Source: Fusobacteria bacterium ZRK30 (GTDB lineage: Bacteria > Fusobacteriota > Fusobacteriia > Fusobacteriales > Fusobacteriaceae). Taken from it: DNA of 64,000 nt. The position numbers were made by a program, and so were the translations under genes. How positions within the stretch are numbered: the stretch's first letter is position 1; every line of letters starts with the position of its first letter. Under the pieces are notes generated by a model. It saw nothing but the letters and a program-made list of their open reading frames with translations. It did not search any database and had not been told where the DNA came from. Where the stretch lies: the NCBI GenBank assembly GCA_024628785.1, contig CP102405.1, positions 620,001 to 684,000 of the forward strand, written 5' to 3'. This document shows, one piece after another, positions 3,816 through 24,068 of this stretch.

Positions 3816-5107
3816 TGAGAAGGATAAGAACAGGAATAGATATAGGGTCATCTAAAACAACTATTATTGTAGGAGAATTATATGATTCTGGAAAAAATAT
3901 AAAGGTATTGGGGCAGACTATTGTTCCATCTAACGGAATAAAAAAAGGTGAAATAATCGATGGGGAATTATTCAGTAGAACCTTGAGATTGGGAAAGGAA
4001 AGACTGGAAGATAAGCTTGGAGTAGTAATAAAAAAAGCTACTATAGGAGTCAGTGGAAGTGATATAAAATCTAGTACCACAGAGATTGAGTATAAGCTTT
4101 CCGATGAGGAGATAGAAGTTACTGAAGATCATTGTGATCAAATTTTTGAGATATCTAAAGAAAAGGTAGTTAAAGAAGATGAACAGGTAATTGCCAAGGA
4201 AATTTATAATTACAGGGTAGATGATTCTGGAATAATGAAAAACCCAGTAGGAAAAGTAGGAAATAAATTAAAGGTAAATGTTCATTTGATAAGGATTCCG
4301 AAATTAAAGGTAAAAAAAATAGTAGAAACACTAAATAAAGCAAAGATAGAGGTAGACAGCCTTATATATAATGGAGAAGCATCTTCAAAAGCTACTCTGA
4401 AAAAAATAGATAAGGTAAATGGTGTAGCATTGGTAGACATCGGGTATGGTTTGACAGAGATAACTATCTTTAAAAATAACAGGCTTATAAATACAAATGT
4501 AATACCTATAGGTGGTATGCACTATGTCAATGATCTTAAATATGTGTTAGAATTAAATCAAGAGGTAGTGAAAAATATCTTATTGGAGATAAAAAACAAG
4601 GATATAGATGAAAAAATTACAGTATCTTATTTAGAAAATGGAGAAAGTATGACTAAGACCTTTGAAGTTAGATATTTAAGGGAGATAATGGATGCTAGAA
4701 CCGATGAGATATTGGAATATATTTCAAAGAGTATAGAGGCTTCCGGGTACAAAGAATACCTGAAAAACGGTGTTGTATTGGCTGGAGGAGTTGTAGGAGA
4801 TTATGGAATTTTAGAAAAGTTAAAATCTTTACTGGATTACGATATCAGGATAGGAACTACTATCAAGATAGATGGAATGACAACTACACTAAAAAATCCT
4901 GCCTGTATTACAGGAATGGGGGTATTGCTAACAGCTCTTGAGGATGAATACAGCGATCTGCAAAAAACAAATGTAGAGGATAAGGTAGAGGAAGTAAAGG
5001 AAAAAGTGGAAACTGTCAATAAAGTAGAAAAAAAAGAAGCAGTTAAGAAAAAGACTGGAACTAAAAGTCCGTCTAAATTTAAAAAATGGTTGGGAAATTT
5101 TATATAG
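3812..5107 (+). CDS. ftsA: Cell division protein FtsA
   Basis: Actin-like ATPase that tethers FtsZ to the membrane. The phosphate-1 motif TGIDIGSSKTT lies at the N-terminus, the phosphate-2 region VALVDIGYGLTEIT near residue 210, and the adenosine motif VLAGGVVGDYG near residue 323. After a Lys/Glu-rich linker (residues about 390-420) the protein ends in SKFKKWLGNFI, a short amphipathic helix typical of the FtsA membrane-targeting tail. The 431-residue length is normal. It overlaps ftsQ and lies 26 bp before ftsZ. Confidence 0.95.
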   Translation: MMRRIRTGIDIGSSKTTIIVGELYDSGKNIKVLGQTIVPSNGIKKGEIIDGELFSRTLRLGKERLEDKLGVVIKKATIGVSGSDIKSSTTEIEYKLSDEEIEVTEDHCDQIFEISKEKVVKEDEQVIAKEIYNYRVDDSGIMKNPVGKVGNKLKVNVHLIRIPKLKVKKIVETLNKAKIEVDSLIYNGEASSKATLKKIDKVNGVALVDIGYGLTEITIFKNNRLINTNVIPIGGMHYVNDLKYVLELNQEVVKNILLEIKNKDIDEKITVSYLENGESMTKTFEVRYLREIMDARTDEILEYISKSIEASGYKEYLKNGVVLAGGVVGDYGILEKLKSLLDYDIRIGTTIKIDGMTTTLKNPACITGMGVLLTALEDEYSDLQKTNVEDKVEEVKEKVETVNKVEKKEAVKKKTGTKSPSKFKKWLGNFI

Positions 5108-5133
5108 AGCCTATAGTCTAAGGAGGAAGATGG

Positions 5134-6192
5134 ATGATACACACGAATGAGCATTTGGTGAAGATAAAGGTAATGGGGATAGGGGGTTCCGGAGGGAATG
5201 CAATAAATGATATGATCGAAGCAGGAGTAACAGGAGTAGAATATATTGCAGCCAATACAGATGCCCAAGATCTACACAATTCTTTAGCTGACATAAGAAT
5301 ACAGTTAGGGGAAAAATCAACGAGAGGGTTGGGAGCAGGAGCTAACCCGGAGATTGGAAAACAAGCAGCAGAAGAAGATTTAGACAAGATAAAAACTCTA
5401 TTAGAAGAAACAGATATGTTATTCATAACATCTGGAATGGGTGGAGGTACAGGTACAGGTGCAGCTCCGGTAATAGCCAGAGTAGCAAAAGAGATGGGGA
5501 TTTTAACTGTTGCAGTAGTTACAAAACCATTTACTTTTGAAGGAAAGAGCAGAATGAAAAATGCAGATTCAGGAATAGTTAACCTAAAAGAATCTGTAGA
5601 TGCGCTGATTATCATACCAAATGATAAATTATTCGAACTTCCGGAAAAAACTATAACATTACAAAATGCTTTCATGGAAGCTAATAATGTTTTGAAAATT
5701 GGAATTAAAGGTCTGGCTGACCTAATATTAAAGACAGGATTAATAAACTTAGACTTCGCTGATATTAAAACGACTATGTTAGATTCAGGGATAGCTATGA
5801 TAGGATTTGGAGAGATGGAAGGGGAAAATAGAGCCATTAAAGCCACTGAAAAAGCCCTTCAAAGTCCATTATTAGAAAAATCAATATCTGGGGCAAGTAA
5901 GATATTAATCAATATATCCGGATCATCGGCATTGGGATTAAATGAAGCTTTTGCAATATCAAATATGGTAAAGGAAGCTGCAGGAAAATCTGTAGATGAC
6001 GTAATGTTTGGTGTTACAACTGATGATGAGATGGGAGACAGATTACAAGTAACTCTGGTTGCAACTAACTTTAGTGATGAATCAACAGAAAAAAAAGTAG
6101 TAGCTATAGAAAAACCAAGTTTAGCTAAAACAGTAGAGAAAAAAGAAGAGGAAGATTTAGAGATTCCAGCTTGGATGAGAAGAAATAATTAA
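5134..6192 (+). CDS. ftsZ: Cell division protein FtsZ
   Basis: Tubulin-like GTPase that forms the division ring. The 352-residue product has GIGGSGGNA near the N-terminus, the tubulin signature GMGGGTGTGAAPV near residue 103, the T7-loop region (LDFADIKTT) and a C-terminal peptide EDLEIPAWMRR that binds FtsA. The ribosome site AAGGAGG sits about 8 bp before the ATG. It is the last gene of the mur-fts operon and is followed by a clear terminator. Confidence 0.98.
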   Translation: MIHTNEHLVKIKVMGIGGSGGNAINDMIEAGVTGVEYIAANTDAQDLHNSLADIRIQLGEKSTRGLGAGANPEIGKQAAEEDLDKIKTLLEETDMLFITSGMGGGTGTGAAPVIARVAKEMGILTVAVVTKPFTFEGKSRMKNADSGIVNLKESVDALIIIPNDKLFELPEKTITLQNAFMEANNVLKIGIKGLADLILKTGLINLDFADIKTTMLDSGIAMIGFGEMEGENRAIKATEKALQSPLLEKSISGASKILINISGSSALGLNEAFAISNMVKEAAGKSVDDVMFGVTTDDEMGDRLQVTLVATNFSDESTEKKVVAIEKPSLAKTVEKKEEEDLEIPAWMRRNN

Positions 6193-22941: not shown

Positions 22942-23235
22942 TTATAAAAGTTTTTTGATGTAGTTGGTAGCCAAATCTTCACAGTTACTCAAAAGATCGA
23001 TAGTTTTATCATCTGATATACGATAGTGGGAATAATTTCCTTCCTTTCTTTTGACAATCAGACCTGCATTGCTGAGAATTTTTAGATGCTGAGATAGATT
23101 TGCCTGTGTAAATTCAGTGTCATCTACTAATTTGCATACACAAAGTTCTCCATCTACTAATTTTTTTAAGATCTTTAATCTTAACGGGTGACCTAAAGCT
23201 TTGAATATTCGAGCTTGGAAATCAATGTTATTCAT
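22942..23235 (-). CDS. ArsR/SmtB family metalloregulator
   Basis: Small winged-helix repressor (97 residues) that normally releases DNA on binding a metal or metalloid. The metal site ELCVCKL (Cys32, Cys34) lies in the alpha-3 region and the recognition helix is TQANLSQHLKILSNAGL. It is first in the arsR-MATE-gshAB run and divergent from the ArsC-like gene, so it probably controls both sides. The type of inducer cannot be read from sequence; As(III), Sb(III), Cd or Pb are usual for the Cys-x-Cys type. Confidence 0.93.
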   Translation of the reverse strand: MNNIDFQARIFKALGHPLRLKILKKLVDGELCVCKLVDDTEFTQANLSQHLKILSNAGLIVKRKEGNYSHYRISDDKTIDLLSNCEDLATNYIKKLL

Positions 23236-23399: not shown

Positions 23400-24068
23400 A
23401 TGAAAATAGCATTTGTATGTAACGGAAATTCCTTTAAATCTATCATAGGTGAAAGGTTTGGAAATGAATTTAATGATGGAACTTTTGAGATTTTTTCAGC
23501 AGGAACAAAGCCGGCTGAAAAACTAAATGAAGCAGGGAAGAAAATAATGGAATCCAAAGGTTATTCTATGGATGGTTATTTTCCTAAAGATATGGATACC
23601 TTACCTAAAAAATTAGATGTTTTGGTAAAGATGGGGTGTAATATAGATTGTCCGATCTATATGGCTGATAGAGTAGTAAATTTTGAATTAGAGGATGTAG
23701 ATGACAAGGAAAGATGTATAGAGTTGATAGAGGTAAAAGTAAAGGAATTATTGGAAACTTTAAAAAGAGGGCGAAAAGCAGAGTCGGCAGCAAGCTGTTG
23801 AGGGGATATAAGAGATAATTCTGGAATTGAATTAAAGGAAGATAAAAAAATAAAAACTCCTATAGAGAAAAAGATGTATGAATATATCTGTTATTGTGAC
23901 AAGGTAACCAAGGGAGACATAGTTACTGCTGTGTTTGGAGGAGCTAAAACTTTCAAGGAAGTAATACAAATAACAGGAGCTATGAAAAACTCTAATTGTG
24001 AGGAGAATAATCCAAAAGGTGTCTGTTGCAGTGCTGATATAATAGAACTGCTAAAAGAATACAGCTAA
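23400..24068 (+). CDS. ArsC-like / BFD-type [2Fe-2S] fusion read through an in-frame TGA (candidate selenoprotein)
   Basis: Residues 1-133 are a low-molecular-weight phosphatase/arsenate reductase fold (KIAFVCNGNSFKS P-loop, FSAGTKP, MGCNIDCPIY). Codon 134 is TGA at 23799-23801, directly after a Cys codon and before Gly (Ser-Cys-TGA-Gly). The frame then stays open for 24 plausible codons (GDIRDNSGIELKEDKKIK) and runs into a 64-residue BFD-like domain with cysteines at ICYC, NC and GVCC. That second part has an ATG at 23874 but only a poor ribosome site. A hairpin 20 nt after the TGA resembles a bacterial SECIS. Readings: a 222-residue selenoprotein, two separate genes, or a nonsense-interrupted fusion. 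If TGA is a true stop, the ArsC-like product ends at 23801. Confidence 0.6.
23816..23834 (+). promoter_or_regulatory. Possible bacterial SECIS hairpin
   Basis: TAATTC (23816-23821) pairs with GAATTA (23829-23834) around a 7-nt loop TGGAATT. The loop starts 20 nt after the in-frame TGA and has G at loop position 2, within the spacing and loop rules known for bacterial SECIS elements. The stem is AT-rich and short, so it could be chance. Confidence 0.35.
23874..24068 (+). CDS. BFD-like [2Fe-2S] domain (separate-gene reading)
   Basis: If TGA at 23799 terminates translation, this 64-residue ORF would be an independent bacterioferritin-associated-ferredoxin-like protein. It has the cysteine set ICYC, NC and GVCC and the NPKG turn typical of BFD domains. 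No convincing ribosome site precedes its ATG, unlike neighbouring genes, and it is in the same frame as the upstream gene with no other stop between, which favours the fused reading given in the preceding entry. Confidence 0.5.
   Translation: MYEYICYCDKVTKGDIVTAVFGGAKTFKEVIQITGAMKNSNCEENNPKGVCCSADIIELLKEYS

Follow-up and report, generated by a model that had tools for sequence, protein, structure and literature searches.

Arsenate reductases of the thioredoxin-coupled kind, known from the biochemistry of the S. aureus pI258 ArsC, work through a triad of cysteines with distinct roles, including a resolving and a shuttle cysteine. Selenocysteine (Sec) has entered the description of arsenate reductases by another route, as the Sec arsenate reductases listed in an earlier selenoprotein table (PMC9312934) are only of the COG1393 type. 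A further line of work concerns BFD-type [2Fe-2S] domains preceded by a Cys-Sec or Cys-Cys pair, which NCBIfam holds as NF045877, the 'Csac_0668 family 2Fe-2S cluster-binding (seleno)protein', and whose Sec-containing version appears as 'CopZ family form 2, CU' in a 2026 catalogue (PMC13188914).

Here, we describe a gene that seems to bring these elements together. It lies in a window of 64,000 nucleotides from a marine fusobacterium, Fusobacteria bacterium ZRK30 (contig CP102405.1, positions 620,001 to 684,000; G000:C2:620001-684000 of the whole genome), and its features are collected in Table 1. We put at about 80% the probability that it encodes a fused selenoprotein whose redox role is linked to arsenic, as judged from sequence comparison. 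An annotation made frame by frame would split such a gene at the UGA, so that the selenoprotein would be missed.

Table 1. Predicted features of the fusion gene and its divergent neighbour (positions in the window)
Feature	Position	Strand	Basis or remark
ArsR/SmtB-family repressor	22942..23235	-	Divergent from the fusion; Pfam HTH_5 and NCBIfam NF033788 above cut-off
Predicted fusion selenoprotein CDS	23400..24068	+	222 residues, Sec134 at TGA, terminal TAA 24066-24068; full-length TGA homologues in three congeners
ArsC-like (low-molecular-weight phosphatase fold) domain	23400..23768	+	Residues 1-123
P-loop C7-N-G-N-S-F-K13	23418..23438	+	Alignment with Fusobacteriota and Bacillota ArsC; Lys replaces Arg of CX5R
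Cys80 and Cys84 (MGCxxxCP)	23637..23651	+	Alignment; match the resolving/shuttle cysteines of thioredoxin-type ArsC
Putative Cys-Sec(TGA)-Gly motif	23796..23804	+	Invariant in four species, within a variable linker
Candidate bacterial-type SECIS hairpin	23816..23834	+	6-bp stem, 7-nt loop, G at loop position 2
BFD-type [2Fe-2S] domain	23883..24059	+	Residues 162-220; Pfam Fer2_BFD E 8.8e-7

The ArsC-like frame opens at ATG 23400 and reaches an in-frame TGA at 23799-23801, codon 134, preceded by TGT (Cys133) and followed by GGG (Gly), and the sequence bears out the original prediction in placing the TGA there between Cys and Gly. From the TGA, the same frame stays open for 88 codons to the terminal TAA and runs into the BFD domain, as had also been claimed. 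Such a stretch is uncommon, with only 4 of the 67 ORFs of at least 100 residues in the whole window remaining open for at least 60 codons past their stop, and among these four the fusion gene alone has a TGA, the other three stopping at TAG or TAA. TGA is also a rare stop here: of 79 long ORFs tallied over the window and the genus loci, only 5 end in it.

The genome holds what is needed to decode such a codon. A tRNA-Sec was found with both Rfam and ARAGORN, and SelA, SelB and SelD are all present in a complete selD-selA-selB operon, which a TusA-DsrE (YedF-like) gene then follows. The SelD of this genome has an in-frame UGA of its own (CSGGG-U-TSKIGPG), and that UGA and its hairpin recur in all six genus genomes in which the stretch is readable. 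In this organism SelD, too, would be a selenoprotein, and thus serves as an independent internal control for the decoding of UGA as Sec. Its gene (L043:7629-8670, minus strand) starts upstream of the mechanically called ORF, and the hairpin at its UGA is strong.

The full-length fusion occurs in 4 of 98 Fusobacteriota genomes (G000, G056, G057 and G059), which belong to four species of one genus, probably Psychrilyobacter. The four proteins share 63-85% identity over their full length and have the TGA in frame; homologues that end at this codon had been named as a reason to doubt the fusion, and the three congeners instead keep both the TGA and what follows it. The Cys and Gly flanking the TGA are invariant in all four, so that the Cys-Sec-Gly part of the Ser-Cys-Sec-Gly motif proposed earlier holds across species, whereas its 'Ser' does not. 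The linker ahead of Cys-TGA-Gly drifts (dN/dS about 0.6-1.1) and carries a 10-codon insertion in G059, and its indels (10 and 2 codons long) all preserve the frame. A motif that stays frozen while the linker around it varies is to be expected of a functional Cys-Sec pair, but not of a stop codon. Judged by their substitution rates, the ArsC domain (dN/dS 0.06-0.16) and the BFD domain (0.17-0.31 in comparisons with unsaturated synonymous sites) are under constraint at the protein level, and so is the stretch from the TGA up to the internal ATG, at 0.18-0.59 apart from a single outlier of 2.2 in a short sample.

Our search covered 98 Fusobacteriota and a Bacillota sample, with other phyla reached by a short-peptide genome scan only. 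Beyond the four species, no fusion was found in the 98 Fusobacteriota genomes, nor in 299 Bacillota genomes or 101 relatives of G358 (two sets that overlap), and the plasmid search returned no record covering it. Two further genomes of the genus point to loss or lack of the module. G058 has the ArsC part only, 86% identical, with a TAA where the linker would begin, and the ortholog in G055 (L040:4000-4260) has been disrupted by the loss of ~0.4 kb from its interior, which joins residue 8 to about residue 150 and removes the segment between Phe-Val-Cys-Asn and Lys-Ile-Lys-Thr-Pro. The module is therefore dispensable. In G055 the arsR and adk flanks of the broken gene and the sel genes are all intact, and G058 still has selA and selB, which argues that the module was not lost simply because the Sec system was.

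The hairpin just 3' of the UGA is present as first described, with its loop (TGGAATT) 20 nt past the TGA, and its offset of UGA+17 to +35 is identical in all four species. In G059, two pairs have changed in a compensated manner (A-U to G-C and U-A to A-U), one further pair is now U-G and one outer pair is gone. Across the four sequences, 96% of the hairpin cells are paired, a share that falls to 25-42% with the partner shifted by 1-3 columns, and 32 of 500 shuffles of the four reach the observed value, a modest result. Within the single genome, neither energy nor stem length goes beyond synonymous randomisation, about a third of the randomised versions of the G000 gene matching its stem length, so that the support is comparative; the Rfam SECIS_1 model, silent in all controls, was uninformative. 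The conserved position and compensatory changes support recoding, although the hairpin is no proof by itself. Taken with the sel genes and the congeners, none of the findings that the original prediction had listed as speaking against a selenoprotein emerged. The selenoprotein reading of the fusion gene is strongly supported at the sequence level, and UGA134 is, with high confidence, predicted to be decoded as Sec.

The C-terminal half has recognizable relatives. The fusion matches NCBIfam NF045877 with an E value of 7.9e-20 and the PDB entry for CopZ (2hu9) with 1.5e-4. All four fusions match NF045877, with E values of about 1e-16 to 1e-20 and in each case along no more than the BFD part, and the 71.4 bits of the fusion lie below the 190 bits set as the cut-off for the whole protein; it does contain the CU/CC motif plus BFD of this family. 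Bacillota relatives begin with CU (L085-L088) or CC (L080, L081), followed by a CPxC zinc domain and then the BFD domain, but between CU and BFD the fusion has no CPxC zinc domain such as L085-L088 possess. Closer in layout are stand-alone proteins of 82 residues from the Clostridia-type genomes L093 and L094, which consist of CC, a short linker and BFD. Their CC aligns with Cys133-Sec134, across a linker gap in the alignment, and the relatives thus have Cys at the site for which the original prediction had proposed to look for Cys or Sec. Together with the zinc-domain comparison, these proteins suggest that the fusion carries a minimal CC/CU-BFD module set on another enzyme, and not a full CopZ-type protein. 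By sequence, the C-terminal half is a known Cys/Sec plus BFD module, kin to NF045877: the iron-sulfur domain proposed at the outset is there, and is better seen as one partly known unit with the Cys-Sec pair.

Other BFD proteins came to light in the process. Three Clostridia proteins of ~70-77 residues (L062, L063 and L064, around 5001-5234) have an in-frame TGA (KGT-U-C); we rejected these matches as instances of the same site, as their TGA falls in the BFD Cys pair (GTUC) and no ArsC domain lies upstream, and they fit form 1 (GxUC) of CopZ as catalogued (PMC13188914). A CopZ-like protein in L090 has the N-terminus CCC-S-D-TGA-K, possibly a Sec in a shifted place of the Csac_0668 type. In G000 itself, a cupin-like protein (L043:12885-13448) ends in what by eye resembles a pair of BFD-like repeats, a further unusual BFD fusion.

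The N-terminal half matches Pfam LMWPc over residues 3-79 (E 2e-9; 38.2 bits against a cut-off of 23.2), and the arsenate reductase 3t38 in the PDB with an E value of 1.3e-10. Its closest solved structures are arsenate reductases of the low-molecular-weight phosphatase (LMWP) type (3t38, 2l17, 1y1l and 1ljl), whereas the score for NCBIfam TIGR02691 is 26 bits, far under the cut-off of 174. In the alignment, the redox triad of thioredoxin-type ArsC is kept as Cys7, Cys80 and Cys84. The P-loop, in turn, reads CNGNSFK(S), with Lys for Arg, in all fusions and in the whole Fusobacteriota clade save L020, so that the fusions have CX5K and no CX5R; because of this replacement, arsenate reductase activity is uncertain. 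The ArsC-like domain that had been proposed is accordingly confirmed by LMWPc, in a more precise form as an LMW-phosphatase type with an altered P-loop.

The link to arsenic comes from the gene neighbourhood, and rests on paralogues and other species more than on this window. Here, the divergent arsR is followed by a MatE transporter gene and gshF on the strand opposite to the fusion, with adk downstream; the reported vicinity to ArsR therefore stands, but the glutathione synthesis gene lies further off, beyond arsR and MatE. arsR adjoins the fusion in L012 as well, and in L060 it is separated from it by an ArsP-ArsE-TauE block, in the order arsR, ArsP, ArsE, a lone Pyr_redox_dim domain, FmdE, TauE, fusion, rhodanese and adk. 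In L061, a pyridine-nucleotide disulfide oxidoreductase gene lies immediately upstream of the fusion. Both G000 and G056 encode a stand-alone ArsC paralogue, 75-76% identical to the ArsC part of the fusion, right after arsR and acr3, and G055 likewise has a stand-alone paralogue. A relative on a Cetobacterium plasmid lies within an arsR/thioredoxin/permease/acr3 cluster, and in G058 the ArsC comes after ArsP, a permease, and ArsE, a thioredoxin. Such neighbours connect the ArsC-like domain with the handling of arsenic. The lone pyridine-nucleotide oxidoreductase dimerisation domain of the L060 cluster (L060:2653-2982, 109 residues) is perhaps all that is left of a disulfide reductase gene resembling that of L061.

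The most likely role, in our view, is that of a reductase linked to arsenic that has an electron relay of its own, made up of Cys-Sec and [2Fe-2S]. The resident SelB and tRNA-Sec, with the hairpin just 3' of the UGA, would insert Sec at UGA134 and yield one chain of 222 residues, in which a thioredoxin-type ArsC-like domain is joined by a Cys-Sec-Gly linker to a BFD [2Fe-2S] domain. The ArsC-like domain would reduce arsenate or a related oxidised substrate, with Cys7 attacking and Cys80 and Cys84 resolving; a mobile Cys133-Sec134 pair may then re-reduce the Cys80-Cys84 disulfide in place of an external thioredoxin, and the electrons would reach it through the [2Fe-2S] domain, perhaps coming from a flavin disulfide reductase like the one encoded next to the fusion in L061. 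The relay step taken alone we put forward tentatively, at somewhat under even odds. An AlphaFold model (mean pLDDT of 54, linker mostly below 45) is too weak to speak to whether Cys-Sec reaches the ArsC site.

The chief rival to the electron relay keeps the selenoprotein and makes the Cys-Sec-Gly/BFD part a CopZ-like metal(loid)-binding arm, which would hand the product (arsenite, say, or some other soft metal) over to an exporter. We give it somewhat lower odds than the relay. The CopZ N-terminal family is the one nearest to the module, Cys-Sec motifs are known in metal-linked selenoproteins (according to the table in PMC13188914), and ArsP-type and TauE permeases adjoin the fusion in L060. 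Yet the fusion is without the zinc domain of CopZ, no exporter stands beside it in the same operon in the window, and in L061 its neighbour is the flavin disulfide reductase.

Rather unlikely, to our mind, is that the gene is programmed to give two products, just ArsC under a shortage of selenium and the entire fusion under an ample supply. The UGA does fall ~10 residues past the end of the ArsC domain, so that ending there would still yield an intact domain, of a kind that occurs alone in G058 and in acr3 operons. Against this, partial termination at a Sec UGA is commonplace and may serve no function. Less probable still is the combined picture of a self-contained arsenic reductase, in which electrons would pass from [2Fe-2S] through the Cys-Sec arm to the ArsC disulfide, and selenium supply would choose between plain ArsC and a self-powered fusion.

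Finally, that the TGA is a true stop, leaving an ArsC-like protein of 133 residues and a separate BFD gene read from ATG 23874 by coupling or from its own start, accords with the regular use of TGA as a stop by this organism, with the ATG of the BFD part and with the stand-alone CC-BFD and ArsC genes of Clostridia and G058, but is highly improbable given a Cys-TGA-Gly fixed in four species amid a drifting linker, indels that keep the frame, the rarity of TGA at the end of long ORFs and homologous modules that have Cys-Cys upstream of BFD within the protein, and with the codons from TGA to ATG conserved at the protein level (KxKTPxEKKM) we rejected an independent BFD gene on conservation.

How does the selenoprotein fusion relate to what has been described? 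In the literature searched, we found no description of Psychrilyobacter selenoproteins. The deep-Sep study (PMC12013277) has no mention of a Sec-containing LMWP-type ArsC or of such a fusion, and the available part of the 2026 catalogue (PMC13188914) has neither an LMW-phosphatase-type ArsC selenoprotein nor an ArsC-BFD fusion, although two Haft papers that it cites may mention one. The thioredoxin-coupled ArsC proteins of S. aureus pI258, Corynebacterium and Synechocystis share with the fusion the LMWPc domain and the equivalents of Cys7, Cys80 and Cys84, and the close paralogues of the fusion sit in arsR-acr3-arsC operons. The fusion departs from them in its P-loop Lys for Arg, in a CxxxC instead of a CX6C spacing, in scores well under the NCBIfam ArsC cut-offs and in being joined to a Sec/[2Fe-2S] module. 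Thioredoxin reductase ends in a Gly-Cys-Sec-Gly tail, a vicinal Cys-Sec-Gly on a mobile segment, and the Cys-Sec-Gly of the fusion could likewise be an electron shuttle; the two are not homologous, and the Sec of the fusion is internal, with an iron-sulfur domain after it.

With the catalogued Sec arsenate reductases (COG1393/TIGR00014; PMC9312934 and PMC13188914), the likeness is one of name and Sec use. These are thioredoxin-fold ArsC proteins with Sec in UxxS or UxxC, whereas the fusion is of the LMW phosphatase type, gave no match to a thioredoxin-fold ArsC domain of that type in Pfam or NCBIfam, and has its Sec in the linker after the domain. The Csac_0668 family, or (2Fe-2S) CopZ form 2 CU, has the same flexible Cys-Sec or Cys-Cys stretch before a BFD [2Fe-2S] domain, but there a CPxC zinc domain is present, and in the fusion an ArsC-like domain stands ahead of Cys-Sec instead. 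Thus both halves have known relatives, and what appears new, as far as the available parts of these sources reach, is their joining through a Sec codon and an LMWP-type ArsC that bears Sec. In linking a little-understood Cys-Sec/BFD module to an arsenic-type enzyme, the fusion offers a concrete and testable hint at the role of that module.
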